Part shown: piece by piece, positions 27,117 through 54,222 of the stretch
How positions within the stretch are numbered: position 1 is the first letter of the stretch
Layout: each line of letters begins with the position of its first letter
Assembly: GCA_023374045.1 (NCBI GenBank)
Contig: CM041776.1
Coordinates: 144,711,296-144,775,295, forward strand
DNA: 64,000 bases
Reading direction: 5' to 3'
DNA from: Limonium bicolor
Taxonomy: Eukaryota; Streptophyta; Magnoliopsida; Caryophyllales; Plumbaginaceae
The notes under the pieces: model-generated
Databases searched by the model: none
What the model saw: the letters and a program-made list of their open reading frames with translations, nothing else
Told to the model about the DNA's origin: nothing
Translations under genes and position numbers: made by a program

Positions 27117-27121
27117 TTTAG

Positions 27122-31403: not shown

Positions 31404-32661
31404 TGTTGGGCAAAATAGTAGTTAAACTATCTTCCTAATTATGGGCAGTGAACCCAATCTTTGTAGTACAACAAGGTCGTATCCACAGAGACTTCGCAAC
31501 TGTCTAATTAATTATTCAGTTTAGTAAATGTACAAAAGATAAATTAAAGTGCATAAAAAGTAAATTGGGGTTTAGCCGGAGGCAAGCTTGGTTTTAGGAT
31601 TAGTACAGAAATAATAAATACAGTAAAACAAAGTAAATGGATGGAAAAAGGTATCCTAGGATAGCGGGGGAATTTCCTAAATTACTTAAACAAATTCATA
31701 ACCATGTCTCAAATATTTATTGTCTATTAGAGTCAATAATTGTCAGTTACGAACTCTTATTAATAGCCTTAGTATTTTCCTGCTCAATCCGGAGTGTAAA
31801 TACTAAGGTTAATCCCTTTGTGGTACTTAACTATCTCAAAATCATATGTTGATAGTTACCAAATAAATGCAGTAGTTTGTAACGCTAAAGCATTTAACAA
31901 TATTTGCTGAAAGGAATTAAAACAAGTTTAATAAGTGAAACAGGTGATAAATATTTATTTAAGTACAGACATTAATTATAATCCTAATTTGCTCTTATTT
32001 GTCTGTTAAGAATTTATCTTGTGGCCTTCCTAAATCATAGATAAGGACAACTCTTAATTAATTCATTAGACTTTTTACAATCAGAAAAAGTCTAAAATCA
32101 TTAATTAGCTTTAAGCGAGAATTCTTTTAATAACAGCGATGGATTTTATCTGCTAATCAAGGAGTATAATATCTAACGTTTGTCTCTCTTTGTGGTCTAT
32201 TCTCAGATTTACAAAATCATTGAAATAAGAGAAACCGTAAATGCATAAAAATGATCAGTTCTTAAGCATTTAATAATTTAGAGAGACAAAACAAATATTT
32301 ATAAAAACTTGGTATTAATAATAAGTCTGAATTATTTAGGAACAAACCCCATCCTAGGATACGAATAAAATCACTCAGACATTAACAATAATAAAAAGGA
32401 AACAGAAATAGCCATTAATTTGGAGACTGCTGCGGAGACTGGACTGCGATTCGCTCTGTTCCAGCTCCCTTTTCTTCTGTTCTTCTTATAGTGTTTACGC
32501 TTCGTGGGGAAATGTAGAATAAAACTAAAATGGAGAAGTGGAGGATACGAGATGAATGGTGGTGGTCGTGGTGGTCTAATACTAACGATTACAATTAACA
32601 AATAACAACTAACAATTTGGATGCGGAGGAAGGGTTATTTTAGTTGAGCAGAGGGCGTGGG

Positions 32662-32669
32662 TTTATATA
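32662..32669 (-). promoter_or_regulatory. TATA box of the inverted solo LTR
   Basis: TATATAAA on the minus strand followed by CCCAC(G)CCCTCTGC, the same context as the full Athila LTR. It could drive a transcript antisense to F2 integrase. Confidence 0.6.
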
Positions 32670-32874
32670 GAGGTTTGGATCCGTACGATTGCAGATGAAG
32701 AAGAGCAGCTTCATTGATTGCGCAGGGGACAAAGCTCACGCGTGAGGGAAATATGGTAGGCGCCGGCGGGGTAGATAGATAAGTTGCAGTGGACGAGTTG
32801 CGGAGAGTCGGCGCAAGTTGCAGACGAAGAAGAAGACGGGCGAAGAAGATAAGCTCAATTTTATACACGACCGC

Positions 32875-33300
32875 CTGATAAGTGGCGGTCTTCTCTGTCT
32901 TGTCCGCGAGTGAACCAGGCGGTAGCCTGTGTCTCGTCCGCCTGATAAGGAGGCGGTAGCCTCAGTGTTGTCCGCGAGTTAAGAGGCGGTAGCCTCTATA
33001 TTTACCGCGAGGCGGTAGCCTGACCGCGAGGCGGTAGTCTGTGTGGTGTCCGCCTGTTAAGAGGCGGTAGCCTCTAAATTGACCGCGAGGCGGTAGCCTC
33101 TCTCACGTCCGCCTCCTTGAGAGGCGGTTGCCTCTATCTGTTCCGCCTCCTTGAGAGGCGGTTGCCTCTATCTGTTCCGCCTCTGTAACCGCCCATTTAA
33201 GAGGCGGTTGAATGAGAGATGTCCGCCCATTTCAGAGGCGGTTGGGTGTGTGATGTCCGCCCCATACTGGGCGGTAGCCTTTGTGAGACGTCCGCCTGTT
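32875..33300. repeat. GGCGGTAGCC/CCGCCT repeat patch in solo LTR
   Basis: At least ten near copies of GAGGCGGTAGCCTC or GAGGCGGTTGCCTC, each preceded by a CCGCGAG or CCGCCT motif, spaced about 20-45 bp. GAGGCGG can pair with CCGCCTC in the neighbouring unit. It lies upstream of the TATA box on the element's own strand. Confidence 0.8.
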
Positions 33301-33565
33301 ATCTCCATGTATAGCTTATTTCTTCTACCGGCTCTAGATTCTTCGTTTGGGCTCCGTTTTCTGAGTCGTCTGTGCTTATGCGTTCGTCTCTTCGTGTACT
33401 TTGCTCCTAGCTTGGTTGTTCCTCATGTTAAAACCAATAAATTGTGAGATAATCAATAAAACATAAACTAGAGGAAAACCATAAGATAAGTGAGAAATGA
33501 GCAGAAAAGTGCTGATATAATATATGAAATACACCTATAAAACATGCTCATTTAGACACTTATCA

Positions 33566-33862
33566 GTTGCCTATCGTTTAGCTTTGCCACCGTCGTTGGC
33601 GAGTGTTCACAGTGTGTTTCATGTTTCCATGCTGAGGAAATATGTTCCGGACCCGTCGCATGTGATTAACTTCAGTCCTCTTCAATTGAGGGAGGACTTC
33701 ACGTTCGAGGAAGTTCCTTCGAGGATTTTAGCCCGGGATGTTCGCAAGCTCAGGAGTAAGACCATGCCCTTAGTGAAGGTGCAGTGGTCGGGTCAGTCGG
33801 AAGAAAGGCGACCTTGGAGGTCGAAAGCGAAGTGTTTCTAAGTTCCCCGCCCTTTTCGATCA
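33566..33862 (+). pseudogene. F2 integrase C-terminus and chromodomain
   Basis: Resumes exactly where the solo LTR broke the gene (VAYRLALPPSLASVHSVFHV) and runs through the chromodomain VRKLRSKTMPLVKVQWSGQS. A small deletion at about 33806 then shifts the frame. F1 preserves the correct end. Confidence 0.88.
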
Positions 33863-33911
33863 GTAGGTACGTTTTAATTTCGAGGACGAAATTCTTTTAA
33901 GGGGGAGGTGA

Positions 33912-36110
33912 TGTTATAACCCAAGGTTCGGTACGGAATTATTTTCATTTAGTTGTTAACCTAAGTGGAATTACTTATTCAGGACATGGAGGTCCTTCTG
34001 ATTAAAGGCGAGGACGAGGAGGTCTTTTGCCATTGGTTAATTAGGTAAGGATTAATTAAGTTAATAAATTCCTTTATTAACTTTCCTGATCACGTTGTGA
34101 ATCACGTTCTTTTCCCCACAATCAGAATCCCTATCTTACAGTTAGCGAGACGCTCTTCTCTCTCTCTCTTCTCTCTCAACGCCGCTTCCTTTCTCGATCA
34201 ATCAAGACTCCCTTGATTTTGCAGTCAAGATTCAACTGTGGATTGCTCCGCCATCGGAATTGCTGGTTTCTTCGAGGTAGGGTTGCCAGATTACTCTTTT
34301 CGTTGATTCTTCGGTTCTTGAGATCTCCTTATTCTGATTTCCTCGGCAATCTGATTATGGTTCAGCGTTGGTTCTTGTGCTCTATCAATTCTCTTCTGTT
34401 GTTGGTTTCATCTGCGAATCCGCTGTCTGATTCAGGTGAGGAATGTGAGTACGTTCTGCATTTCAGTTTCAGGGTTTAAGTTGCGTTTCTGATTTGGGGT
34501 TGTAATTGTGTTCTGATTCAGAGGTTTGGAACTGTTTCTTTTCGGTTTGTGTTGCCGGTCTGCGTTTGGATTTCTGCTGTGGGTTGAAATCTAGTGTTCA
34601 GATTGGAATGCCGTCTCTGTTAATTCGAGGTAGGTGGCTGATGGATTCGATTAGTGTGTTCAGCCTTGGGGAGTTTCTTTCCGGTTCTGAATTTTGATTG
34701 TGATTTGTCTTGGATTATGGTTGGGAACTGTCTGTTTAATGTCGTTTTAGCCTACAAACCCCCAAGGTTGTTTTCTCTACAACATATAATGTTTTGACAT
34801 TGTTTTGGTGCTTCAGTTCGTGTGAAAATCGCATCTGTTCATTGTGTTTTTGGCGCGTCCGAACTTCCGTCCGACCTTGGACGTTCGGACCTGCCCTGTT
34901 TCGCTTTGATTTTTCTGAAGTTTTATCATGTCCGAACTTCCATCTGAGCTTCGATGTTCGGACGGGTGCGAGGACGAGTCCGACTTACAAGTCTCGAATG
35001 GTGTCCGAACTTGTAAGTCCGGACAGATGTTCGGACACACCCATCTCCTTCTTCTGATTTTTCTTCGACTTCTGTCTGAACTTGACATTCGGACACATGT
35101 TCGGACATTAAGCGTATTTGGTTTCCGAAAACGTCCGGATATCCGTCCGAGCTTGGATGTTCGGACACCTCTGTCTCTGCCTCTGTTTTAAGGTTCGACC
35201 TGTGTTAGAGCTTCGTCGTTCGGACATGGTACTGTTTTGACCATAACTTACTCGTTCGAGCTCCGTTTTGACTTCCGTTTGCGGGGTTGGATTCCCCTTC
35301 TGATTTCCAAGCTATCTATGTACTTTCTTGTGCCTTTGGTGCACATATGCTTATCTGTATTTAAGCTTCTGTTTTGGGACCAAGTTATCTCTGTATCTGA
35401 ACCTTTGGATGACTGGTTTAGCTGTCTCGTAGCGCGCTATGTAGGATCCTTCTGTTCACGGGTGATGTTCCCCGTTCTGTTCACTGGTGTTCCACCTGTT
35501 CTGTTTACGAGTGAGGTTTCCTCGTTCTGTTCACGAGCTGGTTGCTCGTTCTGTCTGTATGCTGTGATCAACTAGTGTCCCGTTCTGTTTTCTGATTATG
35601 TCTGTCTCTGACTCTGTTTAGTCCTTTAATGAAGGGACTTTTGTTTCTGTTTTCTGACATGCTTATGGATTCCTTTCGACTCCTTCTGATTTGGATAATA
35701 TTCTTTAAATGTTTTAAGCATGCTGGTTGATGAAGTTAGTCATCTACTAGTCATAGTTGTTTGCTCATTCCCCTACTCTATCTAACATTGCAGATTGATC
35801 AGCGAGGGTCACTTTGCTCAGCTTCTAGAGTTTAGTTTGTTATGTTATTTTGATTCTTTTGAGGCATTTGTATTCGACTTTGAGCCTTTGGGCCTCTTCA
35901 GTTAGCTTCCGCTTTGTTATTCGTTTGGTAGGTTTTGTAATGACTTTTGGGATGTTTCAACATCACTTTGTTAATACTTTTATGCGAGGATTCGTTTTGG
36001 GCCTTGCTTGATTATTTGTTAACTTCGTTTATTAGAGCCTTGCGTTATTACGTAATAATACGTGGCGTGTAATACCCCTAACTCCTAGGCCAGTGTTTGG
36101 GGGTGTTACA
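33912..36110 (+). repeat. F2 3' LTR
   Basis: Third copy of the F LTR, about 2.20 kb, from TGTTATAACCC to GTGTTACA. It is preceded by the stem-loop at 33876-33893 and TTAAGGGGGAGG. It differs from 24906-27116 by small indels and substitutions. Sequence beyond 36110 is unrelated, marking the outer edge of the array. Confidence 0.93.
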
Positions 36111-36885
36111 CTTTTCCCAAGCGCTTCGCTCCTATGAGGCTCGAGCGAGAAATACAAGAGAGCTGTCAACGAGGAGAAGGCAAAGGCTTGAGAAATCCTT
36201 AAACGAGCGCAGGCTCAATTTGAGGACAAAAAGGTCGCCCTCCGGGAGGAACTCCAAGAAGCTGCGTCCATCGACCAAGAGGATGCTATTAAAAGGTTAT
36301 AGGCTGCTTTTGACGATCAGCAGCGGATATTAGAAGAGGAAGCTGAAGACGTTCGGAAGGTTGCTGAAGAGGTCCGGAAGACTACTGAGGATCTACGGTC
36401 TTCCTTTGAATCAGAGTTGGACAAATAGAACCAAATCTTGCAAGCAGCCGAGGCCAAACAGAATGACCTCAAATCCAGCCTTGAAACGGAGAGGGAAAAG
36501 CTTGCACATGCAACTTTTCGTATTAAAGAGCTTGAGGAAGAGTTGGAAGCACAGAAGAAAAAGGCTTCCGGTAATCTTCGTATCACCGAAAGCATCCATT
36601 TTTCCTTCTCTTTTACATTATTCTGTTAATCCTTTGTGATTCATGCAGAAAATCCAAGTCCCTCGTTGGAAACTGCCAGAAGTTCCGACTTTTGGCTTAA
36701 AAATGTGTCCGGTCTTAAAGCTTCATTGATCACTTCGGAGTCGGAGAGGGAACGATACCAGAGTCTTGCCTTATCCTACGAGAGCCAACTTGCAAAGCTA
36801 AAGGGGGCTCTCAAAGAGACGCAGTCGGAACTCCAAGCGAAGGACCGTACTGTTTCGGGTCTCAAAGAGACACTCTCTTCCAGTG
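36111..36885 (+). pseudogene. Coiled-coil gene remnant with intron
   Basis: Between the F2 edge and the element C LTR lies coding-like sequence rich in Glu, Lys, Arg and Ala. One frame reads ALREELQEAASIDQEDAIKR, then EEEAEDVRKVAEEVRK, then AAEAKQNDLKSSLETEREKL and FRIKELEEELEAQKKK. An intron of about 79 bp fits at 36572-36650 (donor CCG/GTAATC, acceptor ATGCAG), phase 1. It joins in frame to ENPSPSLETARSSDFWLKNV and a second helical segment ending at 36885. Two TAG codons (36300, 36427) sit where CAG would suit the repeat, and the 5' end is frameshifted. Such coiled coils occur in myosin-like host proteins and in the C-terminal part of plant 'putative transposase, gypsy type' ORFs; which applies is undecided. 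Confidence 0.6.
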
Positions 36886-37503
36886 TGAAATACCCCAAAC
36901 CTAGTTATGTTGTTTAAACACACTAAAATAAGGTGTGGTGAGACTAAAAAGAGTCTTAGAAACATTTGTAAACAATTTAAATCATAAAAAACACAAAATG
37001 TGCTTTAAGGTCAGTAAAGGCCAAATGTGCTCTAAGCTTTGGATAAGCTTGGTTAAGACCTAATGAACTTACCAAGACCTTATTATATACTAATGAACAT
37101 ATTAAACCAATTAGCAAAGAAAACCAAGCTTGAAAACAAGTTAAAACACAAAATGTGCTTTAAGGAGTCTTAAAGCACATTTTTGAAAAATTGTCTTGTA
37201 AATGATTTTTGAATGGCTAAATGTCCATCATTACTCTTTAATTAACATGTGTACTATATAGTATCACATTTGGAAGTCTATATCAATGGGAAATCAAAAA
37301 TTTCACATCTATGTGCCTTGTTTTTACGAATAGTAACTTTAATAAGCTAGTTTGTAACAAATGTTGTTATAAGTAATTAAATTGATAAACAAAGACTAAA
37401 ATACCCTTAGTAATAAGGGGGCCAGTTTTGTAGCAATGAGTCACCAAACATGTTAGTTAATTAAGTAACAAATGATGACTAATGGTTACTATTTGCTTTA
37501 AGG

Positions 37504-37511
37504 TATAAATA
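37504..37511 (+). promoter_or_regulatory. Candidate TATA box in C LTR
   Basis: TATAAATA followed about 25-30 bp later by the pyrimidine-rich ACTCTATTCTCTTCTTCC, a typical plant transcript start context. Confidence 0.6.
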
Positions 37512-39124
37512 TCTTCAAAAGCAAAACTCTATTCTCTTCTTCCTTCCTCATTTCACACGCCTCCAAGCTCTCTTCTACCTCTTCTTCATTCTCCATTTAC
37601 GGTTTGCAATAGTACACACCAAGACTCCATCTTTGACCACTTGTATTTCCTAGCTCACTTAACCAAATCAAAAACAAACACCAATTCTCTTCCTCTCATC
37701 AAGCTCTTCATTCCTATCTTTTCAAAACTTCAAGACCACCATTTTGGTGCCATGGATTTCCACCATTGAAGGAGCTTGAGCTTATATTTCTACATATTAT
37801 TGATCTCCCTTGCTTCTAGGTAAGGAATCTCAAAGAAAAATGATGTTTCTTCCATGTTTTTATCTTGACCGAGAATCACCATTAATGGTGCTCATTATAT
37901 TGCTTTGTTCTAGCTTCATTCCAACCTTTCAAGGACTAGGTGGAGTCCTCTCTTGATAGATATTCAAACTCTCTTCAAATACCAAGGTAAAACAACTATC
38001 TTAATGCTTTTGAAACAATGTGAAACTAGGGTTTACAATGAGATGAAGCTTAAAGCTTGTATACTCATTTCATTACTTGTACATTGTTTAGAAGTTGATG
38101 AACAACCAAACATCCTTACCGGTTTTATAAGGAAACAAGAAAGAAGTTGTGAGGAAAAGAGGTAAATATGCTAACCTAATGTGGTTTAAAGTCTTAGGAG
38201 AAATGAGCTTATGTTGCTTATTGAAATGATCTAAGGAGCCAATGGTGAATGACTTAGTAAAATGTTCTCAAGGGCTTAGTAAGAGGCATATGTATTGTTG
38301 AGTGTATTTGCAGATCAAAGGCAATATATTGTGGAAATTCAGTGTTTAAGATTATGCATCTTAAGGGCCTAAAAGCCATGTTATTTAAGGGCCTAAGTGC
38401 CATGCAATTTAAATTATGCACTATATTGTGATGTAGTGCTAAATGTGTGAAATTTGTGTATAAGAATGTGTTTGATGGATTTTAGTGTTCATGGTTTTTG
38501 ATGGTGAAAACAAGTGTCTTGGTTTAGTAATGTTCTAGGAGAGTTCATGTCAAAATTTAGGTAATAAACATGAAGTTCTAAGGGTTTTAAATGAGTTGGT
38601 AAGTTAGGAAAGGTTTAGAATGGTTAAGTGTTCAACTAGTGGGAGAAACATGCATTAAGGTGCTTAAAGATGTAAAAGGGCTTAGGCAATGTTCTAGAGG
38701 ATTTAGAATGCAAAAGAAGCTTTGGGACATTTCAAGATTCATGGTGAGAGTTTATTTAGGACTTGTGTATTTTTGGTGAAAAAGGGAAAGTGAATTGTTG
38801 CATGGGAATCTATAAACTTGTAAAGATGTTCAAGGAGTTGTTTAGGAATAAAAGATGCTTGGGGATGATGTTGTAGTGGTGAGAAAACATTTGGGAATAG
38901 TGGGAGTTATGGGTATGAAACACCACATAGAAACTTAGTGAAAAACATTATAAGTGTAAACCTTTTTATAAGAATTTGTGTAAATGCTTGAGGAGGATTT
39001 TAGTGAATGATTTGAGGAGTTTTAAGGAGGTCTTAAGGTGTTTTGAAGTGCCCAAATGAGGTTAGGATATACTAGGGTATATGAGGTGAAGTTTGGAGTT
39101 AAATGGGCAATGGAAAATAAGGGT

Positions 39125-39460
39125 CTGGGGCAGACCGATCTTGCGACCGACTTGCAAGGTCGGTCGAGCCCAGTTTACCCTGCGAGAATTGGTTTCTGGA
39201 ATGGACCGACCTTGGGGACCGGACTTGCAAGGTCGGTCGGGCATGGATTTTTAGTACGGATTGAGTCTCTGGAATAGACCGAACATGGGACCGGACTTAC
39301 AAGTTCGGCCGGGCCTGGATTTTCAAAGGAGAGAAACTCTCGGGAATGGACCGAACATGTGACCGAACTTACAAGGTCGGTCGGTAGAAAACTTTGACGG
39401 TAATATGTTCTGGAATGGACCGACCTTGTGTAAGGTCGGTCGGTAAGGTCGGTCGGACCA
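39125..39460. repeat. GACCGACC/GGTCGGTC palindromic array in C LTR
   Basis: Five units spaced about 68-73 bp (near 39131, 39204, 39277, 39349, 39417). Each holds GACCGA(A/C)C...TTG and, about 25-30 bp on, CAAGGTCGGTCGG or CAAGTTCGGCCGG. The arms are reverse complements, so each unit can form a stem-loop. Variants pair with each other in part: where the left arm is CCGGACTTAC the right arm is AAGTTCGG. Confidence 0.78.
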
Positions 39461-40830
39461 AAACTTGTAAAAAAAAACAAACAAGAATGGTTTAAGTAAT
39501 AAACCCTAGGGGGTGTAATGTGGGTAATCAAGTATAAGTTAAGACATTAAGACATGTCATATAAACATGTTAAACACTTAATAAATTTGAAGTTAAGTAA
39601 GTAATTAACCGACATTCTTAAACATGTATAGGAGTGACCTACGGTGGAAATCGATCAAAGCAAGGACCAAGGTATGGTTTTCTTGCAGTCTGTTGCCTAC
39701 CGGTTTACACCGGCTTGTGTGTTGTATGTTTTTCTGTGTGTTTATGACGTTATAAGACTTAAACATGTAATGAGTTTACAGTTGTTCATATTACTGCAAT
39801 GTTATGATGTAACTCATTTCCCTTGTGTGTGTCTAACATGACTTACCACTTGTTGTGAATTGTTTGTTAAGTTCCACTGTTGAACTTCTAACATGTGCTA
39901 ACTGGGAAGTGACGAATCCGGTTGTCCGGTCATGCATGTAAGTTAAGAGTAGATATCTGAATCAGATTCGACTCTTATGTTGTTAAGATTGTCCTCCTTA
40001 ATTTGGCGTTCGATCTCCCGCTAGCTTCCTCCAAAGCTTACCTATTCCGACTTATGATCGGTTTAGTGGGAACATGTGTTTGTGTGGTGTGTTCGGGTCA
40101 CTATATCCGAACCCTCTGTGACTTAAGTTACTCGTTCGAATAACAGAACGGTAATGAGTGTGTGTAACGAGCTTAACATGAGGGTGAACCATTCTCTAGG
40201 CTCTTATGTTATTTAACCTTCTTGGTTTGTTATTGTGGGAAGAGTATCCACTGTGTATGTGATGTTGTGCTACGCAATGATAATGCTATGCCACATGTTA
40301 TGTTATGTTATGTTATGTTGTGTTTAAAAATGAATGCCATGTTATCATGACAATTAGTTGCGCGTATCCCGGTAGCTGATGGGCTGCGCGTTAACCATAC
40401 CAGCCAAGGGTTGCTGACCCCCTCGGGGGCTCCATATTTTTACTGCAGGATGAGGATCGAAGAAGCAGAGTGGCTGTAGGTCCTAGGCTGCAGATGTACT
40501 TTTGGTTATTTTGGATGTTGAGCCCAGGATGCGCTTGTGCTCCCGTGGCATTATATTTTGATTCCGTTGAAACTACTGTGGCGGTATATTCGGAGTTTAC
40601 AGTGAAGGAATGTATTTAAATACTTGGTATTGTATATGATGTAATTATGGTTTTAGTTCTATGCTCGGGAGTCTGATCATCAGACCGGTACACTTGTATT
40701 TATTCTGCCTTGTTAACCACGTGGGTGGTTGACGGCGTTGTAGCACCGAAGCGTTTAGTTATTGTTTAGTTATTTGTTCCACTGCGATTTCAATTAGTTG
40801 TGAAGTAAGATGTAGGGGTGTTACAAAAAG

Positions 40831-40842
40831 TGGTATCAGAGC
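40831..40842 (+). other. Element C primer-binding site, tRNA-iMet
   Basis: TGGTATCAGAGC five bases after the LTR. TCAGAGCGA (40835-40843) pairs perfectly with TCGCTCTGA (40848-40856) across a four-base loop, placing most of the PBS in a nine-bp stem. Confidence 0.93.
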
Positions 40843-41043: not shown

Positions 41044-41718
41044 ATGTCAGGTAGACCGAGAGGTAGAGGCCGCGGAAGCGGTACTGGAGATACGGATGAC
41101 GAGGGCGAGAATACTACGGCTCAGGTTATGGCCGAAGCTGTAGCGGCCGTCGTAGCCCAAATGGTCCCACAACTTGTAGCTGCAATTCAGCAGGGGCAAT
41201 AGCCCGAAGTTCAACCACCACCGCCACCACCACAAGAGACCAACTGGGTCAAGGCATTGGCAGACTTGAGACCCCCGTCATTTCATGGGGAGACCGACCC
41301 ACGTAAGCTGGAGGCGTACATCTCTGAGTTGGAGACCGCCTATGAGACCTTGGATGTGCCTGCTGGGGCCAAGGTCCGTCTTGGCGCTTACTACCTGAAG
41401 GGATCGACACAGAGTTGGTTGAAGCTTGTGAGAGAGGACCGGATGGCGGATCCTCAGTTTGGATGGAGGGAGTACACAGCTCTACTGCGAGCCAAGTATT
41501 ACCCTGTGCATGTTCAAGAGGCTAAGTGCCTGGAGCTGGATAGTCTGAGGCAGGGGGACAAGATGTCGGTTGATGAGTACTACACTGCATTCACCGGCCT
41601 TATCCACCTGTTACCGGACCTGGGATACTCGAACCGGGTGCTGGTAAACCGTTTCTACAACAGTCTCAGCCACCGTCTTCGCTATGGGATGGGGCCAGCT
41701 GAGTATACTACCTTGCAG
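41044..41718 (+). pseudogene. gag: Element C Gag exon 1
   Basis: ATG 41044, about 200 bp past the PBS, opens MSGRPRGRGRGSGTGDTDDE and a helical segment. TAG 41200 interrupts it at codon 53 where CAG (Gln) would fit; the frame then continues open. The retrotransposon gag domain follows: LADLRPPSFHGETDPRKLEA, SWLKLVREDRM, YTALLRAKYYPVHVQEAKCL and KMSVDEYYTAFTGLIHLLPD. It ends TTGCAG before a consensus donor GTAATT. It supplies the structural capsid. The single stop makes this copy defective unless read through. Confidence 0.83.
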
Positions 41719-41822
41719 GTAATTTGAATGAAGTGTGATGTGAATAAGGGTAATCCATAAGTGAATATTAATGTGAGTTTGTGAATATGTTTTGCGGGGC
41801 ATGACTCACATCCTAAATCCAG
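41719..41822 (+). other. Candidate gag intron 1 (104 bp)
   Basis: CAG/GTAATTTGA ... CTAAATCCAG/GAG. Removal joins the frames in phase 0, giving TTLQ then ECYHAAAKVEI with no stop. The segment is AT-rich and has stops in the gag frame, unlike its flanks. Confidence 0.72.
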
Positions 41823-42084
41823 GAGTGCTATCATGCCGCTGCTAAGGTCGAGATTACCGTCCGTCTGAGGGACGAGGAGAATGCGCACAAGCGCAAGGCC
41901 ACGAGCGAGGGCCAGAGTCCGCAGGGGTACGGGGGAGGAAAGAAGAAGAAGAAACCTTATCCCCAACCCCAGAAGAGTCAGCACCAGGGTGACAAGGGCC
42001 AAGCCCAGACCACCACAGCTGAGGAGCCATTGAAGCTCACATATGCTTATGCGGCGAAACCCCTACGCTTTTACCCACCAAAGG
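41823..42084 (+). CDS. gag: Element C Gag exon 2
   Basis: An open stretch of about 87 codons: ECYHAAAKVEITVRLRDEEN, a basic Lys-rich segment (GGGKKKKKPYPQPQKSQ) and KLTYAYAAKPLRFYPPK. Such basic linkers commonly precede the zinc knuckles of Gag. It ends in phase 1 at AAAG/GGTAATT. It is too short and too broken from its neighbours to be found without splicing. Confidence 0.7.
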
Positions 42085-42167
42085 GTAATTATTTAATCAT
42101 GTGTGACAAGTTGAAGTATATGTTGTTAAGTTATGAAGTAAGTATTGATTGTGTACTGTGATAGCAG
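42085..42167 (+). other. Candidate gag intron 2 (83 bp)
   Basis: Donor GTAATTATTT, acceptor GTGATAGCAG. Phase 1 on both sides, so the frame continues from PPK into ASTGSGPERHYYC. An acceptor three bases earlier (GATAG) would also keep frame. Confidence 0.7.
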
Positions 42168-42509
42168 CTAGCACGGGCTCTGGACCGGAGCGCCACTACT
42201 ACTGTAAGTGGTGTAACGGAGACCACCCCGGCAAGGACTGCAAGGGAAACGACGTGCAGTGTCGTTACTGCGAGAAATGGGGTCACCGTGACTACGAGTG
42301 TTACCGGAACCCCAACAGCAGAGTCAACAAGCCCAAGGGGCAGTGGAAGGGTAAGGCCACAGCGACTATTGATGGCCCGAAGACGGCTAACCAGCCACCC
42401 ACAGATCAGAGGGGCACTGATTCCCAGAAGGGGAAGGGGTCGGGACCTAGCAAGGCCACCCTGCACGTGGTGGACCGGTATGAGGCGCCAGGGCCCTCTT
42501 CTAGACCAG
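42168..42509 (+). CDS. gag: Element C Gag exon 3, double zinc knuckle (nucleocapsid)
   Basis: Two intact CCHC knuckles: CKWCNGDHPGKDC (CX2CX3HX4C) and CRYCEKWGHRDYEC (CX2CX4HX4C), followed by a Pro/Lys/Gly-rich tail. Knuckles bind element RNA during packaging. The exon ends at GACCAG/GTACC in phase 1. Reading on would stop 10 bases later (TAA 42518). The same donor is compatible in phase with two acceptors, one leading to the AlkB frame (42656) and one to protease (43628). Confidence 0.78.
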
Positions 42510-42656
42510 GTACCGCCTAAACTGTTGAATGAAATAAGTGATTGCATACCGTATTTCATGCATGTGTGTATTAGTGAGTCCAATTGTATTATTATGTGAG
42601 TAAAGAGTTAAAGTATAGTGTGAAAGTCACCTAATTAGGTAATTCTGAACTTAAAG
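42510..42656 (+). other. Candidate intron 3 (147 bp), Gag to AlkB
   Basis: Donor GTACCGCC, acceptor ACTTAAAG/GAACC. The phase-1 donor joins in frame to about 25 codons (TFNICYPIPPTPNPEETT...) that run without stop into the AlkB Met at 42734. The acceptor is non-optimal (AAAG rather than CAG). Confidence 0.55.
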
Positions 42657-43396
42657 GAACCTTCAATATATGTTATCCAATCCCACCCACACCAAACCCA
42701 GAAGAAACCACCATCAACATCACTGACTTTCCAATGGAGCAAAGTCAGGTTATCCAGCCAGGTATGATACTCTTAAATGGATACCTGACACTGGAAGCAC
42801 AAGTCCATATCATCAGACGATGCAATGAACTTGGAGCAACACCTGGAGGTTTCTACACACCTGAATACCCGAGCGGATCAAGAATGAAATTGAAGATGAT
42901 GTGCATGGGTAAGGACTGGAATCCTTACACCAAGACATATCAAGAAGTGCGAGCTGAAGACGGAGCAACTGTACCGATGATACCTGAGGAGTTCCTTGCG
43001 GTCGTTAACCATGCCGTGGGAATTGCTCAGCAAGTTGAAACAGATTCAATTCCAAGTGTTAAAGCAGATTTGTGTATTGTGAACTTCTACCAGAAAGGTG
43101 GACGATTAGGTTTACACCAAGATAAGGACGAGTCACCCGAGTCTCTAAGTAAGGGAGTACCCGTGGTGTCTTGGTCCATTGGTGATACCGCAGTGTTTAT
43201 ATATGGCGAGCAGAAGCGTGCTGACCTCGTAAGGAAGTTAGTGTTGAAATCAGGAGATGTACTAATCATGGGTGGGCAGTCAAGGATGCTATATCATGGC
43301 ATCAGGAAGATCAAACTGAATACCGCACCGTCGGCAGTGATCAATGCCACACACATGAAACCCGGACGTTTGAACTTGACCTTCAGACAGTTTTAA
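42657..43396 (+). CDS. AlkB-family Fe(II)/2-oxoglutarate dioxygenase inside element C
   Basis: The open frame from ATG 42734 gives 220 residues; if spliced to Gag it starts at 42657. It is a complete AlkB dioxygenase domain. Iron ligands H128 and D130 (GLHQDKDE) and H188 (MLYHGIR) are present. 2-oxoglutarate contacts N117 and Y119 (NFY), R212, N214 and R218 (GRLNLTFRQF) match the E. coli AlkB pattern N-x-Y ... RxNxxxR. The nucleotide-lid side includes GGFYTPEY and MKLKMMCMGK, and GDVLIMGGQSRMLYHG is near-canonical. AlkB enzymes oxidatively remove methyl groups from N1-methyladenine, N3-methylcytosine or N6-methyladenine in nucleic acid. The sequence looks like cellular plant ALKBH1-type proteins. 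It has no stop or frameshift, although Gag in the same copy has one. It sits between nucleocapsid and protease, on the element's strand, with no promoter of its own seen. Substrate is unknown. Confidence 0.88.
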
Positions 43397-43628
43397 AGCC
43401 TTGTATAATTGTGTAATGTGTTAAGCCAGTGTATGTTAAGGATATTATATATGTGTTAGTTATGACAACAGTGTAAACCAACGTATAATGTAAGAAGAGT
43501 GTGTTAATGAATAAAGTGAAGTTGTTGAAGTATATCAACCGTGTTGTTACCCAATACTTATTAGTTTGCCAATGAATTTGGCTGTGCTCTCGGAACGGGA
43601 GGTATACTGAGTATCTGCAATGAGGCAG
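43397..43628 (+). other. AlkB 3' flank up to candidate protease acceptor
   Basis: AT-rich, non-coding sequence of 232 bp after the AlkB stop TAA (43394-43396). It ends at TGAGGCAG/AAGCC, an acceptor in phase with the Gag exon 3 donor. Splicing 42510-43628 (1119 bp) would skip AlkB and place protease in frame with Gag. In-frame coding-like sequence also exists just upstream of the acceptor, so the true acceptor is uncertain. Confidence 0.5.
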
Positions 43629-44454
43629 AAGCCAGCAAGAGCGGCACAATCCTCACCGGTACCTTTCTAGTCAATGGCGTGGACGCTTCGATCTTGTTCG
43701 ACTCCGGAGCCTCTCATACATTTATTTCGCTATCCTTTGCGAAGAGGCTGGGGTTAGACGGTGATGAGATGCCAGACTTCCTAGTCACTCTCCCGTCGAA
43801 AGAGCGGATCAGGTGTACCCGCTACCACCGAGATGTTGTTGTACGAATCAGAGGTGAAGAGTTCCCGATCGACTTGATAGAGTTCGACGGACTTGGTTTT
43901 GATGTGATTGTCGGGATGAACTGGTTGGAGCGGTACAAGGGCAGAATCCTGTGTGCCGAGCATCGTCTGCTCCTTCGGAGTCCATCTGGGGTTACTATAT
44001 CTTACCGCCAGAGGCCCAGGAAGCCTTCGACTCAGATCATCACCGCCATGGCTATGTGTCGTGAACTACGACGAGGGAGTGATGTATACCTCTGCTATGT
44101 CCAGGACATAGAGAGAGATCCAGAGTTTAGTCCTGATGTGCTGGTAGTGTCGGAGTTTCCTGATGTATTTCCTAAGGAACTGCCGGGCATGCCGCCAGCA
44201 CGGGAAGTAGAATTTGAAATTGATTTGGTTCCGGGCACCGGACCAATTGCGAAGGCGCCCTATCGTATGGCTCCAGCAGAAATGACAGAGCTCAAGGAGC
44301 AGCTGAGAGACCTACTCGACAAGGGATTTATCCGCCCTAGCGTGTCACCATGGGGAGCGCCGATCCTCTTCGTGAAGAAGAAGGACGGTAGTCTCCGCCT
44401 GTGTATTGACTATCGAGAACCGAATGCAGTTACGGTGAAGAACCGTTACCCTTT
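43629..44454 (+). pseudogene. Element C protease and N-terminal reverse transcriptase, truncated
   Basis: The open frame has [20 protein letters not shown] and the protease active site [13 protein letters not shown], then [20 protein letters not shown] linker ([18 protein letters not shown]) leads to RT motifs [56 protein letters not shown] replaces the usual YRELN. It is cut at 44454, before the catalytic FIDD block, by an inverted LTR that begins TGTAACACCCC. The rest of Pol is absent from the window. Confidence 0.88.
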
Positions 44455-45775
44455 TGTAACACCCCTATTTAACATATTTATAGCAGAAATAAAATACTAA
44501 AGGCGTACAGATCATCGGGTTCCAAACACCCGGTACCAAACCTCACCAAAATACAACTTAATGATTACAACTGTCACGGCCTGAACCTCGAGAAAACTTA
44601 ACAAAAGTACAACAGTAATAAAACATATAAACCCTCAAAACCTAATCCCATCCCAATCACTCGTTCTCTTCGTGGCCACCTGTAAAATAACTCGTACCTG
44701 CAAGATAAAACCAAGCAGCCCACCCCAAGAGGGGTGGGTCAGTTCCCTGGAATGGAACTGGTACGATCCTCCAAAACAAACTTATAATACAATTCTTAAA
44801 TAATTAATAGCAGGAAAATAAACACTTAAACCACACAGAGGAACAAGGCATTTCACAAATCACCAACCAAGATAACATGATAAGAATAAAGGTTAATAAC
44901 AGAAAAGTAAAGTTAGTAAAACAAAACCACATCAAGTGTTAGTGAGCATCCATTGCCTTAGTTAAACCCAATTCCCGTCAGGAGTAGAAAGACTCTGATA
45001 GTCACAAAGGACTAGGAATAATAAGATAGATCCAAGGATCAATAACTCAAGAGTGGAATAATTCAACTGGGAGAGATGGCCCCCACCGCCAAATATAAAT
45101 GTCCGTATGGACGAGGGATATACAACCCCCTGCTGTCATATTAAAAAATGTCCTGGTGGACGAGGGATATACAGCCCCCTGCTGTCAAATATAAATGCCC
45201 CTATGGGCGAGGGATATACAGCCCCCTGCTGTCAAATATAAATGCCCCTATGGGCGAGGGATATACAGCCCCCTACTGTTACCATTGAAGACGCGCGCAC
45301 GTCGAAACCTCAAGAACCAGCTCATGGATGAAACGATATCCAGAGTCGAAAGAAGAATTTACCAAAGTTGACCTTTTCCAAATTCCCACCAGATCACTAA
45401 CTACCCAGAGCAATACCAAAACACTCAGTCCTACAGAGTGCAGAAGCGTAAACCCCAAGCAGTCAATGTCCAATGGAACAACCAAAGAGAAGGAACCAAT
45501 ACCCAAGTGAGTTTCACATTCAAGGCTCAGTTAGTCACACAAGCTGAGTTAGTCACACAACCATTTTCTTTTGGAAATTCCTCGTAAAGTCAGTTAGCGT
45601 TTTTCGAAAACGTCTCATAAGTCAATCAGCAAAAGTAACGGAGTACGAGAAATCGTACAAAACATTCCACAAAGTCCAAAACACAACAAGCTGAGTACGA
45701 GAAATCGTACCTGGTATGTGAAGAACAATAAATAACTCGAATAAGTGATTCCCCAATAGTAACCTATAATTAAGG
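44455..45775 (-). mobile_element. Inverted LTR fragment, relative of X
   Basis: Reverse complement of an LTR 3' end (TGTAACACCCC at 44455). It follows the X LTR segment by segment at clearly lower similarity: CCGGGTGTTTGGA motif, paired hairpins at about 44720-44758, a repeat array at 45091-45285, and the twin GTACGAGAAATCGTAC palindromes near 45648 and 45696. Similarity ends near 45710. It is a sister family rather than a copy. It interrupts C's RT and is itself bounded at 45776 by X copy B. Confidence 0.82.
45091..45285 (-). repeat. About 47-50 bp tandem repeat in inverted X relative
   Basis: Four units with GGGCGAGGGATATACAGCCC-type cores and a CTGTCA join. It occupies the position of the 38-bp array of X but has a different unit length, so the array has been re-amplified in each family. 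Confidence 0.8.
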
Positions 45776-48700
45776 TGAAATACCCTAAATTAATTTAAAT
45801 TAATTTAGGGGATTTCTTTTATTAAACCTTTAATAATACTATTAAGTATTAAATTATTATATGGAATTATGAATATTAAATTATTATATGGAATTATGAA
45901 TATTAAATTAATATAAGGGGTTGTGAAATTTATTTAGGGGTTTTCTCCTAATTATTATATAATTGTATAGTATTATGAATTTAATAATAAGATTTATAAG
46001 TCAATAAATCTTGGGGAAATTTCTAAACACTCCAAATATATTATAAAGATTTTAGGAAGTGTTGGAACATTGTTTTGAAACATAAAAGTCAATATAAAAT
46101 TCTAGAAACCTTAAAGCTTATTAAGCCTTGCTAGAGCTGACTTTTTGAGAATGGTCAAACCAGGCCATTAAACCTATACCAATAAATAGGTTATGAAAAA
46201 CCATGAAGATCGATAAAAATAACGTCTAAAACGGATCATCCTAGCCAAAGTTATGCTAGATTGAAGTTTTGAATCAAAATTTTAAGAAGTGCCACGTGTC
46301 ACTCTGTAATGGGTCGCCCACACTTAGCCGATTTCCTTCCCTGATTTTGGTAACCGATTTCACTTCCTAGCCCTAACTTTAGACGGCTATAACTTTCACA
46401 TCTCTCAATATTTTTCCATGCCGTCTTCACCACTCTCTTCTCCTACAATTACTCTTTCCAACCATTACTCATACAAACCCTAGATCCTTCTAAGTCAACC
46501 GGGAAATCGAGCCAAAGTAGCCACCTTGCTAGGCTGTTTCCAGAATTCCGGAATTTCCTTCGTTTTCAGGTAACTTGCGTCGATCATAACTTCTTCGTTA
46601 ATCAACCAAAATTCGATTTCTTTAGCTCGTTGTAAAGATCTCTAATCCCTCTACAATTTTCGTGTTTATGCCCAAGTCTGAATCGCAACCAGTTGGGAGA
46701 TATAGAGGTCTAAAGTTTCGGTTTCAACAGCACATAAAATAACACCGAAACAGGAAGGTAAACTCGTGTTTTGTAACTTTAAAATCTTTTTGTATGGTGC
46801 GACTTAGGATTAGTTCTAGTTATCAATGTGTAGAGCTAAGTTTCATCTTTCTATTGAGCCAATTAACAAAGCCTAAATCGATCTGTACAATAACTTATAG
46901 ATCCTCGAAGTTGGCTTCACGAACTGATCGGAAGCTCGAGTTTTTCCAGAACCCGTTCTCGAATTCTCCTCCGATATTGCAATTCCGGTGAGTGTTTCCT
47001 CAAATTCTTCCGTTGTTGCTAATTTATACTTCATTGTCGACCTAACCCATGTGCCAATTTAGTCAATTTCGTGTTAGGCTAGGAGAATTTGGAGGAATTG
47101 CATTCGATTTTATTCTGTACCAAAATAAAAACCTAACTCTCGAATCAGTTTCGAATCTTGGTGTATACTGTATTAAAATTGGGGAAATTGGTACCAATAG
47201 AACCGGAATTTGATTACGAATCCATAGAAACAAGAATCACTCGATTTCGTTCTATAGATTAGGAGTTATCATCGATTTAGTACTCGGGTTGCAATTTAGA
47301 ATCGGGGAAGAACTTGAGTTTCAGGGACCGTCCGATCAGAGTTTAAAGGATTGGACGGTCCAGATTAGATCTGGCGATTTAAAGTTGTTTTAGGGTTTTA
47401 TAAATTCCAGTAAATAGTCTTAACTTGTTGGGTTAATTTAAATATCTTCCCGAATGTATTTTGACTTGAAATTTTAACCATAGATTCCTTATTTAATATA
47501 GTTTATTTTGATGTAAATTATTATGGCTTTGGAGTTTTTAAACATAAGTTATGATTTTTACAAGTTACGGTTTTTCTGGAATTATTCGGTTAAATAAAGA
47601 AGATATTTTTATGAAATAAAAATTTTATAATATGTCTAAAATGTTATAGTTACTGTATATTAAATTTGGGAATTTTTGGGCAATGGTAAAAGGTTTTAAA
47701 AATTGTGTTTATGAGTTTTTCATAAGAATAACCTATAATATAAGGTTTTAATGTAATCAAAAATTAAAGTGTAGTTGATTAATGAACTTTATAGGTTGGG
47801 GAAAATATAATAAGACTAATTAACATTTAATACAGTATGTTTATAAATATTTTGGGTATTAACTTTAAGTGAAGTAAAAATTGTTACATATACTTATATA
47901 TATTTATATGAGAGAATAAAATAGAAACTTATATTAAATCAAGGAATTTAACTAAACTACATTTTATTTATTATATGGAAGCTAATACGTTTAACTAAAA
48001 CTAAGGGAAATACTTTATTTTATAAACCATAAATCAGTTGTGGATATGTCTAAAAGATATTAAATATAATTAAATACAATAGAATTTCTTGAAGAATGTT
48101 CTGGATAAATCTTAATATATGTGATATATATATATTCATATAATAAATACAATAAAAATAGATAAGGGAAATAACATTCCTTGTGAGAAATATAATAGGA
48201 AGGATATATATATATATATATATATCGATAAATTAATAAATAAAAGGAATAAAATACCTGATAGAAAATGTAATATGAAGGAATTAATGAGTTAAACTAA
48301 ACCTCTACATAATACTAATAATAGAGTACTATATGAGGTGGTATTATTTTATGGTTATGAACTGAGTTTTAGTTACCTTTGAGTTTCTAGGATTTATATT
48401 AACGATATTAAAATACATGTAGTATTAGTTGTCAACGACCAGGATGTAAATCTTAAATTGGGATTAAGTAATTAATAAGTTAAAACTTAGGAAAAATTGT
48501 GATTACATAAAATGTTGTACAAATAGATCTTATTCTATAATTAATGTTAAACAAAAGTAATACGTTTACATCTAGATGTTCTTATTATATAAACCATAGT
48601 AAAATAAGTAAAATACTTTTACATCTAAACGTGAGGTGGATTAGTAAGTCTATATTTAATCATTTCTTAACATTTATGGTAGTGAGATATAACTTAATGT

Positions 48701-51593
48701 TTTAAGATAGAATCATTAAAAGGATTATGATATATTCTATATTAAACGATGATTTGGACATTTATCTAAATTATTATCCTTAAGTTTCTTAGAATTAGGT
48801 AAGCCATATAAAATACATTTATTACCAATATTCAGGATGTGAGTTTACATGTAGGTGAGGTATTTAGTAGTGAGAATTTATAGGAAGGTTCATAATAGGA
48901 ATTTTATACCTAAAACCTTTGAACCTTCTATTAGGTAAAACTGAGTTACATAAGATATTATATTGATATACTTTACGGTAATAGGAAATAATGATATGTT
49001 ATTTTGAATATAAAATAAGGGAATATTCATAATAGATTGTCTTATTATTTAATTAACAATTTCACTTACGAACCAGAATTTAATTCTTTGATAAATTCTA
49101 CTTTGTGTAGATATATTGTCCATCCTAAATACAATAAAGGAAATTAATTTATTAAGTTATTTCTTTGAAACCTTAGGTTTTGTACAGCAGTTTAAAACAT
49201 ATTTAAGGTTTAAGGTTATTGAAGTTTAGTACAAAAGGATTGTACATGGTCTATAGAGAGAATGTGTGTTAAATAAAACATTTAGGAGATTAAAGGTAAG
49301 TAAAGCTACATACAAGGTTATATTTAAACACCTTATTATATAGGTAATAATTAAGCGAATGATATACCTTGTGGATACTAAGTAAAAGAGTTGGAAGGGT
49401 TTGAGTTAATTAAAATATAGTTGTTTCAGGATGAAGAGTAATTGAACATCTTAAGGCAAGATAATTAAATGGTTATAATATTAAGTCATTCTAAAGTAAA
49501 GATAAAATAATTGAGTCTAGTAGTTGTCTCTAAATTCTAAGATCAATGAAGTTGTAACGAAATGCAGCTACGACACTATGATTCCGATATACAGGTTGTA
49601 GGTCTTAATTCAGTTAAGGGGAAGACTTAATCATAAAGGATTATCTAGTAAATATTGATAAGATACCTAATCATTACCTTATGGAATAATAGTATAGTAT
49701 TCTAAGATAAATCCATCATAGGTTATAATACGATGTCTGTCCTAAAGTAAGAATAAAGGTATTAAGCTTAAGGGTGATTATTGAGATTCTAAGACTAACT
49801 GAGTAATATAAATACACTTAAGATATAAAGGTATTAATGTGAGAACTACGGTTAAGTATTAGTAGTGGATAAGAGTGAGGAATCTATTTAAGTTTGACTT
49901 AGGGTATAAGTTATTGATGATAGATTACCTTTAATATTCTTCAGAGTACTGTTGATTGTTTACGCAAGTTGTCTAGAGCTGCTACAGCGTTATCCAGGTA
50001 CGATTTCTCGTACTCCGATATTTTTACTGATTGACTTGTGGAATGTTTTGTACGATTTCTCGTACTCAGCTTGTTGTGTTATGGACTTTATGGAATGTTT
50101 TGGAACACCAACTGATCTTGAATGGGTTTCAGAATGAGACTGTTGTGTGACTAACTGAGCTTGATGTGACTAACTGAGCCTGTATGTGAAACTTCCTTGG
50201 TTATTGGTTCCTCCTATCTAGTTGTTTCACTAGATATTAACTGCCTAGGGTTTACGCTTCTACACTCTGTAGGACTGAGTGTTTTGGTATTGCTCTTGTG
50301 CAGTTAATGATCTAGTGGGGTGACTGGGAATATAGGAAAATATCTGGTTGTGGTAATTCTTCCTTTGGACTATGGGTATTGTTTCATCCATGAGTCGAGT
50401 TTGATCAGCCTTATTTGGAATGGATTCTTTCTATTGGATATTAATTGTTGAGGGTTTACGCCTCTGCACTCTGTAGGACTGAGTGTTTTGGTATTGCTTG
50501 TGTGCAGTTAATAATCTAATGGGAATATGGGAAATGTTAATCTTGGTACTGAATATGGATTATTTCTATTAAGTGGTGCACACACTTTCACCGATGACCG
50601 AGAACGGGTCGGTGGCAGCGGAGGTCTGCTATACCTCGTCCATCTGGACAACTGACAGCGGAGGTCTGTTTACCTCGTCCTTGTGACAACTGACAGCGGA
50701 GGTCTGTTTACCTCGTCCTTGTGACAACTGACAGCGGAGGTCTGTTTACCTCGTCCTTGTGACAACTGACTGGCGGTGGGGGCCATCTCTCCCAATTGGT
50801 TTATTCCACTCTTGAGTATATTTTGTCTATGGAATCATCTTCTGAAATGGTGGAGACATAAACTGTCTACCACGGGTTATGGATATTCATGTCACTCCTA
50901 GTCCTTTGTGACTACTTAAGTCTTTCTCTTCTTAACCAGAATTGGTTCTAACATCAACAATGGATGCTTACTAACTATGTGGTGTGACTGCTTAAGTGGA
51001 TGACTGGTTTGGAAGTTCTCTATCTCTATCCTTACCTTGTTCTCTCTTCTCTATGATTGATTGTTTTGAAGTGCCTCCCTTCCCTGTTTTACTTTCAAGA
51101 GTTTGAAATTTAAGTGGACGACTTGGTTTAGAAGTTCTTTATCTTTATCTTTGTCTTGTTTTCCTTTCTCTTTAACTTGATTGTTTTGAAGTGCTTTATC
51201 TCTATTTTACTTTTGAGAGTTTGTTATCATGTTACTGTTTATTTTGAAGTGTTATGTTTTATAAGTTTGTTTTTGGAGAATTGTACCAGTTCCATTCCAG
51301 GGAACTGACTCACCCCTCTCCGGGTGGGCTGCTTGGTTTCATCTTGCAGGTACGAATTGATTTACAGGTGGCCACGAAGAGAATGAGCGTTTGGGTTGGG
51401 TCTAGGTTTTGTGGAGAGAGAATATGTTTAATTTCTATTATGTTGTGTTAAGTTTTTCTCGAGTTCAGACCGTAACTTAGTTAATTGTAATGGTTGTAAT
51501 TGGTGAGGTTGGTACCGGGTGTTTGGAGCCCGATGGTCTGTAGCACCTTTAGTTTATTTTCCGCTGTTGTTTTATTGTTATAGGGGTGTTACA
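45776..51593 (+). repeat. X copy B 5' LTR, 5.8 kb
   Basis: Starts TGAAATACCC, ends GGGGTGTTACA. Its first 2.26 kb equals 15386-17643, and its last part equals 1-1965 plus 12605-13331. The middle segment 48033-48888 is seen only here: very AT-rich, with a (TA)n run near 48209-48226. It holds the G-box 46293, the GGACCGTCC/GGACGGTCC pair 47325-47361 and the 38-bp array near 50610-50770. An LTR of this size is at the upper end for plant elements. Confidence 0.87.
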
Positions 51594-51840
51594 GAAAGTG
51601 GTATCAGAGCGTAGTTACGCTCTGAACCCGAGAAAACAAGCCGAGTGAAATACTTAGATTATAGGTGCACTTAAAACTGGGGAACTGGGGTAGAATTGGG
51701 AAGTGAGGACTCCAGTAAGGCACGACTCCTAACCCTTTTTGGAATTGTGAACGATTCCTTTACACACTTTTCTTTTGTAAATGTTTGTTGAGTGTGATGT
51801 GTTGTTATACCGTTCCAACAGTAAACTACAGAAATAAATA

Positions 51841-51882
<42 letters not shown>

Positions 51883-53665
51883 TTTGGAACACCCTATATT
51901 AAGTACGATAAGATTTTGGTTGAGATAAACCAAATATTAAGCTATTTTTCAAAAGCATACTCATGGAGAATACATTGCTAAAAATGCAATCCTTTAAAAG
52001 CTGGTACACAAATTCCTAGAATTTTAAAGAATACTTTTGGTTGAAAACAGTATACAAATAAAACTTTACATAACTAAATTAGTATTGATGTTATGTGATA
52101 GTACTTCAACTCCTTTAAAGTTTGAAAATAAATCTCATGAACTACTTGGTATCGATTTATTACCTAAAGATAATGTTTAAGATAAATCTTAAGTCTAGAA
52201 AATTATTAAGCTAACAAGAACTAGTAGCGTATTAGAAAAGATCAACATCTGAACTTGTAAAACACATTAAAACTCTATGTTAACTTTAGAAAGAAAACAC
52301 ATAAACCTAACACCCTACGGGAAGTGCCTGGTGCGACGAACTCCTAGGCTGAAAGTAGTGGGGGTGCACACCCACTTCTAGAAGTTTAGGGGCTAGACAA
52401 GCCTTGTCATCTAACTGTAAATAATCTTCTACGCATGTGATGGATTGTGTTGAACTTGAGGGGAAGTGGTGGTAAGACGTTACCATCATGAAATCTTGAG
52501 CTAGGCATATTTCATTGCTAACCACAATGAACAAATCAAAATTTGTATCTTAAGATCCGGTATTAAAACTCATAAATGTAAAGGGTTTATTGAGTTAAAT
52601 CTTTGGTGGAAAAATGCCTATACATGGAGGAAGGGGTTTAAGTTTGGGTACTCCAAGATACAACATCCACCCCTGGTTGAATATATATATAAAAAAATCA
52701 ATAAAAGAAGTTACTTAAAGATTGAGTGAAGAGAAGAGTAATACTAGACTAAATATCATTGATCCTTAAATACTTGAGTATTGAGCATCTTAAAAAAAAA
52801 AAATTGAGAGTTACATAAAGACTGGAAATTCTCATGTTTATTTGGAAGTTTAACATTATACATCTATAAAATTTTAAAAGACACACTAAGAGTGATATTT
52901 ACCAAAAGTCACAGAAAATATTTATCTTATAGAGTTTTAACATATGGTTGGCCAATAAACCTTTGAAGATAATTTTGGAAGATTATTGAGGATTATTAAA
53001 TGATCGGGAATATTATGTTAAACTACTCAAGTACGTTACACCCGAGGTATAGCTTAGTAATATAATTGATATGATAAATGATCATATATGGACATATAAT
53101 TCGTATCAGTCATTAAATGAATGGATAATAATCATAAGATAAAATTTTAACCACCAAGGAAATACAAATACATAACAATCAAGAGATACAGATATATATA
53201 ACGATCATAGATATAATCAACGGTGCAGTAAAATTCAACAAAGCTGGTTAATGAGGTGTTGAATTCTTTGAATGTGCCATTAGTAGCGGTACGAGGGCGT
53301 ACCTTAGCTCTTTTAAGGGGGATATGCTGGCATACTCCTCCTTCGTTATCTCATCCGGATTATGCCTCGTTGCATTATTAGCAAAGGGAGAACAGTATTA
53401 GCAGAATGAGAGGTGTTTGTATGTGCTTGGTTTTTGCATTATGACTCAGTATGTGACTTTTGATTTTCATCATGTTATATCTTGGTATATCCTGATTCAG
53501 TTTGATTTTGAGTAATCTTGAGTGGAATGTTGTTATGGAAGTGGATGGAAATAAAGGATTGGTTTGGTATGGAACTTTTATTGTCTCAGCACACCCGAAG
53601 CGGTGTGAGTGCTTATTAGTTGATTTTTAAACTTCGAGGCGAAGTTTCTTTTAAGGGGGATATGC
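51594..53665 (+). mobile_element. X copy B interior, non-coding
   Basis: 2.07 kb matching 13332-15385. The TA microsatellite (about 51837-51880) is longer than in copy A. It ends with the AAACTTCG-AGG-CGAAGTTT stem-loop (53629-53647) and AAGGGGGATA. No protein-coding trace. A 75-codon minus-strand frame (52307-52534) is present in both copies but looks like no known family and is probably fortuitous. Confidence 0.85.
51599..51610 (+). other. X copy B primer-binding site, tRNA-iMet
   Basis: TGGTATCAGAGC with the same TCAGAGCGTA/TACGCTCTGA palindrome as copy A. Confidence 0.93.
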
Positions 53666-53989
53666 TGAAATACCCCTAAATTAATTTAAATTAATTTAGG
53701 GGATTTCTTTTATTAAACCTTTAATAATACTATTAAGTATTAAATTATTATATGGAATTATGAATATTAAATTATTATATGGAATTATGAATATTAAATT
53801 AATATAAGGGGTGGTGAAATTTATTTAGGGGTTTTCTCCTAATTATTATATATTATTGTATAGTATTATGAATTTAATAATAAGATTTATAAGTCAATAA
53901 ATCTTGGGGAAATTTCTAAACACTCCAAATATATTATAAAGATTTTAGGAAGTGTTGGAACATTGTTTTGAAACATAAAAGTCAATATA
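53666..53989 (+). repeat. X copy B 3' LTR, truncated
   Basis: First 324 bp of the X LTR, identical in layout to 15386-15710, ending abruptly at AGTCAATATAAA. Beyond it is D-family LTR in reverse. Confidence 0.87.
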
Positions 53990-54205: not shown

Positions 54206-54222
54206 ATCTACCCCCCTTAAAA

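Follow-up and report, generated by a model that had tools for sequence, protein, structure and literature searches.

A truncated Ty3/gypsy retrotransposon copy in the 64-kb stretch of Limonium bicolor DNA analysed here (the window) carries an intact AlkB dioxygenase frame of ALKBH1 type between gag and protease (Table 1). Since related gag and enzyme genes likely lie on one second contig, the element probably uses AlkB for itself, and likely does so by demethylating its own RNA or the DNA copied from it. On our best reading it would represent an independent, second capture of an AlkB enzyme, with alternative splicing as the probable means of producing either Gag-AlkB or Gag-Pol.

An intact AlkB frame between gag and protease

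The AlkB frame runs open for 253 codons to a TAA at 43394-43396, and the two other forward frames of 42639-43396 contain 19 and 16 stops. Pfam domain 2OG-FeII_Oxy_2 (PF13532) covers residues 43-251 (E = 7.4e-47), and the seven cofactor residues (HxD...H, RxNxxxR, N and Y) are found at N150, Y152, H161, D163, H221, R245 and R251. An earlier, sequence-only reading had claimed that all catalytic residues were present with no stop, and that AlkB lay between gag and protease in a single orientation. Both claims were borne out, the latter by a Pfam gag match upstream and RVP_2 downstream on the same strand. The start given in that reading, 42657, falls directly after the second of two in-phase AG sites. 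No second AlkB copy was found in the 64 kb.

An AlphaFold2 model built with 42 aligned sequences was confident (pLDDT 91.2, pTM 0.90). The nearest solved structure by sequence was rice ALKBH1 (PDB 5xeg, E = 2.9e-68). The PDB search returned 24 rows up to E 1, headed by rice ALKBH1, bacterial AlkB and animal ALKBH1 and including three unrelated rows at E 0.6; ALKBH5 was absent from them. Judged by these matches, the enzyme is ALKBH1-type, closer to ALKBH1/AlkB than to ALKBH5.

Table 1. Features of the AlkB-bearing element, in order along the window.
Feature	Positions	Strand	Basis
5' LTR, TGAAATACCCC ... TGTTACA	36886..40825	+	TG...CA ends adjoining primer site; pieces 77-80% alike to other LTR ends in the window
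Primer binding site TGGTATCAGAGC	40831..40842	+	Sequence
gag exon 1, capsid part, one in-frame stop	41044..41718	+	Retrotrans_gag, Ty3_capsid; 61% identical to gag relative P0121
Predicted intron 1, CAG/GTAATT ... CCAG/GAG, 104 bases, 64.4% AT	41719..41822	+	In-phase GT-AG; break conserved in P0121
gag exon 2	41823..42084	+	Open, in phase with exon 1
Predicted intron 2, 83 bases, 71.1% AT	42085..42167	+	In-phase GT-AG; acceptor 42164 also in phase
gag exon 3, Cys/His-rich, nucleocapsid-like	42168..42509	+	Sub-threshold PHD and zf-CCHC_3; ends CAG/GTACCG
Predicted intron, gag exon 3 to AlkB, 66.7% AT	42510..42638	+	In-phase acceptors 42638, 42656
AlkB open frame, ALKBH1-type	42635..43396	+	Open frame, Pfam, PDB match, model, constraint
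AlkB-protease spacer, rich in stops, 65.4% AT, probably ending the gag-pol intron	43397..43601	+	Composition, acceptor sites
Protease and RT start, cut by inverted LTR piece at 44455	43602..44454	+	RVP_2; RT start compared with two window elements

Layout and class of the host element

The 3.9-kb 5' LTR has an alternative start at a TG at 36884, and the primer binding site at 40831 (TGGTATCAGAGC) is of a sort that we take to be tRNA-Met type. Retrotrans_gag matched 41203-41727 of the forward strand (E = 2.4e-13), preceded by one true stop, a TAG at 41200-41202. The description of gag as stop-bearing in the sequence-only reading thus holds for this single codon; the other breaks are intron-like gaps. 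The Cys/His-rich segment (42149-42520) drew Pfam matches below threshold only (PHD 0.002, zf-CCHC_3 0.014), its knuckles being read by eye. RVP_2 matched the protease frame (43565-44500, forward strand) with E = 1.5e-29. An inverted LTR piece starts at approximately 44455, inside RT, and neither a 3' LTR nor further pol of the AlkB element was found in the window. With the element cut at approximately 44454, most of its pol and its 3' LTR are therefore absent from the window.

Two other segments touch this element or its LTR family. The segment 36114-36885, charged and coding-looking by eye, is cut off by the 5' LTR of the AlkB element. A minus-strand stretch of approximately 5 kb (54193-59196) is bounded by an LTR-like start and a primer site related to the LTR family of the AlkB element. 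The window queries for gag, AlkB and pol found no match in it, and it is perhaps a non-autonomous relative.

Gag, protease and RT of the AlkB element are of Ty3/gypsy type (Retrotrans_gag, RVP_2 and the RT start). Two other elements in the window share 65% and 72% identity with the RT start, and one of them, scanned further downstream, contains a Chromo domain (PF00385, E = 3e-7); identity to another Ty3/gypsy-like element, at 6541-7884, is 32%. According to PMC6317226, tRNA-Met primers are a trait of most chromoviruses and not of non-chromoviruses. The AlkB element is likely chromovirus-like, as judged from the primer site and a short RT piece; the copy ends in RT, and no chromodomain is left in it.

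The window also holds two chromodomain-type elements (19755-24561 and 26597-31402) that are 95.9% alike over 4.8 kb. The LTR-like blocks of this pair (24556-27119 and 33564-36113) are 95% alike, as in an LTR-internal-LTR-internal-LTR tandem (19755-36113). A 78-base unit rich in GAGGCGGTAGCCTC occurs twice, 85% alike, at 32940-33095. A further element at 45776-54022 has an LTR of approximately 5.8 kb and, near 51600, a primer site of tRNA-Met type; its internal part is short and gave no match to gag or pol. A copy of it, 97.6-98.8% identical, lies in pieces at 1-1965 and 12605-17644; the block that splits this copy (1-17644) occupies 1966-12604 and has ends of its own that are 97.6% identical. 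Two runs of exactly 500 N (18231-18730 and 60031-60530), within copies of one LTR-like repeat, are probable assembly gaps.

Relatives of the enzyme and probable linkage to gag

When 5.8 billion proteins were searched with the AlkB frame, 1215 matched at 1e-10 or better, and the best 120 of them were examined. Four of these were close relatives: P0001 (71% identical), P0003 (69%), P0004 (66%) and P0002 (59%). The other 116 were at most 54% identical to the window frame. A search with gag exon 1 yielded one passing match among 26 candidates, P0121 (61% identical). For P0001, an AlkB, as for P0121, a gag, the source is ena and the longest contig measures exactly 26,621 bases; gag and AlkB therefore likely sit on one second contig. 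From contig size and source, these two are likely to constitute a second, well-diverged gag-AlkB copy. For P0002-P0004, the putative tie to elements is their clade membership alone; the contigs of P0002 and P0003 measure 26,561 and 9,956 bases.

The window AlkB and P0001-P0004 formed one clade in a 65-row tree (SH-aLRT 99) and in a 38-row tree that included three bacterial rows (bootstrap 89, SH-aLRT 99), and the clade has 18 positions specific to it against 37 other rows. With four relatives in its clade, the window AlkB is not a one-off. As to where the captured gene came from within plants, the element clade joined liverwort rows with support of 71/36 in the 38-row tree, where the bacterial branches are very long, and neither of two alternative placements was rejected (AU p = 0.36 and 0.28). 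Plant ALKBH1 (rice 5xeg, ALKBH1D-like) is nearest by sequence and has the same cofactor residues; unlike it, the element clade occupies a branch of its own, bears these 18 particular positions and lacks most of the host N-terminal region.

Relatives were also sought elsewhere. None was confirmed in the viral contigs scanned and none was found in the genome contigs scanned. Fifty plasmid records matched, the best place in each being less than 60% identical; the 12 listed were bacterial AlkB-like and were used as outgroup only.

Constraint on the enzyme

The sequence-only reading had taken the integrity of AlkB to suggest selection. A simulation of neutral decay by substitutions only left the frame stop-free in 10/300 runs at 55 residue changes and in 2/300 at 92, so the open frame by itself does not entirely rule out neutral decay. 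The distribution of the changes bears out constraint. Between the window AlkB and P0001, 4/70 host-conserved sites differ against 56/140 host-variable sites (p = 3.7e-8). All ten AlkB pairs, which are not independent of one another, pointed in the same direction (10/10, p = 0.0047 to 8.2e-12). Along the branch leading to the window AlkB alone, scored at sites where P0001 and P0002 agree, 3/66 host-conserved and 19/71 host-variable sites had changed (p = 0.0004). These differences arose after the copies parted and spare the host-conserved ALKBH1 sites, which shows that AlkB was held under constraint for much of the history of the clade.

These data bear on the explanation that AlkB is a host ALKBH1 gene, or a retrocopy of one, which was inserted into a single copy by accident and does nothing for the element. 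The element was read as DNA in a single copy, and AlkB is 55.0% AT compared with 40-44% for the gag exons, both of which would suit such an event. Against it stand the single clade that unites AlkB with four database proteins, of which one likely shares a contig with a gag relative, and the constraint that persisted after the copies parted. A lone copy with its own TSD and poly-A had been named in the sequence-only reading as the mark of a random host-gene or pseudogene insertion; relatives were found instead, the longest flanking repeat around AlkB was 8 bases, a length reached in 319/500 shuffles, and no poly-A was seen by eye 3' of the frame. Random insertion is strongly disfavoured, and we regard a chance passenger without function as highly improbable.

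Alternatively, gag-AlkB could be a domesticated host gene with introns, the adjoining protease and RT being incidental. An intron-split gag and a constrained enzyme fit this too, and no pol relative is tied to the second contig. However, a 3.9-kb LTR and primer site come before the pair and protease and RT after it, all on the same strand, and gag contains a stop. Moreover, among the 120 listed of 375 passing longer AlkB proteins none had a gag or pol Pfam domain (0/120), so that no annotated gag-AlkB host gene was seen; AlkB within long annotated polyproteins was rejected on the same count. Domestication is thus an unlikely explanation.

Predicted splicing and a proposed Gag-tethered enzyme

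The gaps in gag are 64-71% AT with GT...AG ends, compared with 40-44% AT in the gag exons. The first break is shared with P0121, which ends in TTLQVLS where the window frame, 61% identical, reads TTLQVI; this break at the same residue is the strongest evidence for the putative introns. The donor at 42509/42510 is in phase with AlkB at 42639 or 42657, and also with protease at 43602, 43629 and 43632 (acceptors 43601, 43628 and 43631). The T-rich acceptor at 43564, by contrast, does not match the phase of gag exon 3. Open, in-phase donor-acceptor pairs numbered 4/20 for intron 1, 2/4 for intron 2, 2/10 for the junction to AlkB and 13/40 for that to protease, and phase matches give weak support to splicing.

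According to the available text of a 2025 review (PMC12786077), plant LTR elements are generally without introns, Ogre and EVADE being exceptions, and spliced short-Gag RNAs are known in EVADE and BARE1. Ogre, EVADE and BARE1 resemble the reading proposed here in being plant LTR elements that splice to separate protein products. In Ogre (Tat) and in EVADE and BARE1 (Ty1/copia), splicing is reported from experiments and that text describes no AlkB exon (PMC12786077), whereas in the window element splicing is predicted. Ogre has a tRNA-Arg primer and a dual RNase H; the window element has a tRNA-Met-type primer site, and its RNase H region is missing.

We lean towards a chromovirus-type element in which AlkB is an alternative exon within the gag-pol intron and the enzyme clears methylated bases from the element's own RNA or new DNA. 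A single donor after the nucleocapsid-like exon (42509/42510) would be joined either to AlkB, giving Gag-AlkB, or to protease, giving Gag-Pol. Attached to Gag, AlkB would then enter the virus-like particle and so be close to the packaged RNA and the single-stranded cDNA. There the enzyme could remove blocking or marking methyls (m1A, m3C, m6A or 6mA), and their removal may help reverse transcription or escape from host marking. The splicing, the Gag-AlkB product, its packaging, its substrate and the benefit are all steps that we infer. For an enzyme of ALKBH1 type, unpaired DNA (6mA) is indicated as a target at least as strongly as RNA bearing m6A (PMC10469495).

The main rival is an AlkB untethered to Gag, made free from ATG 42734 on an intron-retaining or subgenomic RNA. 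Its cellular targets would be RNAs of the element or of the host, in line with the proposal made for ORF2 of an orchid element. This ATG is the first in frame and lies just 5' of the domain, and the frame has its own stop. The orchid AlkB is likewise a separate ORF that is said to be expressed independently of Gag-Pol (PMC9289625). But the gag exon 3 donor is in phase with AlkB at two sites, and ATG 42734 is far downstream of the gag start, so that a free enzyme needs a separate RNA or re-initiation. We consider a free enzyme possible, though doubtful, and with moderate confidence prefer an AlkB that is tethered to Gag and works on the RNA or single-stranded cDNA of the element itself.

Comparison with known AlkB-bearing elements

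The sequence-only reading knew of no described Ty3/gypsy family with an AlkB gene. This was mistaken, as such a family was published from Phalaenopsis in 2022 (PMC9289625), the sole paper among the open-licence ones listed whose title or abstract reports an AlkB-bearing LTR element. A screen of 121 genomes, which its authors describe as unsuited to low-copy families, detected AlkB-bearing Gypsy elements in two Phalaenopsis genomes but in none of the other plants (Alvarado-Marchena et al. 2022, PMC9289625). The ALKBH5-like enzyme of these Phalaenopsis elements demethylates m6A in vitro (PMC9289625). Gypsy_Pa_2799, which encodes paALKBH5-like (PMC9289625), and the window element are both plant LTR elements of Ty3/gypsy type that have gained an AlkB gene with a complete catalytic set. 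In Phalaenopsis the AlkB is kept over many copies, and a role against base methylation of element RNA has been proposed (PMC9289625).

The two differ in lineage, layout and enzyme. The Phalaenopsis element is a sister of Ogre (Tat group) with a tRNA-Arg primer (PMC9289625), whereas the window element has a tRNA-Met-type site and a chromovirus-like RT start. The Phalaenopsis AlkB ends a separate ORF of 565 residues next to a single Gag-Pol ORF (PMC9289625); in the window a 253-codon frame stands between gag and protease, and gag has intron-like gaps. Moreover, the Phalaenopsis enzyme is ALKBH5-type with m6A activity demonstrated (PMC9289625), while that of the window is ALKBH1-type and known from sequence. 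Enzyme type, primer site and ORF layout led us to reject membership in the Phalaenopsis family, and the best reading of the window element is therefore that a different lineage captured a different type of AlkB on a separate occasion. Plant RNA viruses (Alpha- and Betaflexiviridae, Closteroviridae) are also genetic parasites with an AlkB of their own, thought to repair or unmark RNA (cited in PMC9289625); they replicate differently.

Implications

Taken as a whole, the proposal is that a chromovirus lineage took ALKBH1 once, that a single gag donor chooses between Gag-Pol and Gag-AlkB, that a particle-borne demethylase cleans template and cDNA, and that this is a second, independent AlkB capture by a plant gypsy element. 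We put forward this full chain tentatively. If true, it would provide a retroelement whose demethylase is carried in the particle, and the single splice donor selecting enzyme or polymerase would be a simple, testable switch. The ALKBH1 type directs attention to DNA marks or blocking lesions as well as RNA m6A. If two gypsy lineages each took up a different type of AlkB, this would mark out base methylation as an obstacle that plant retrotransposons meet repeatedly.
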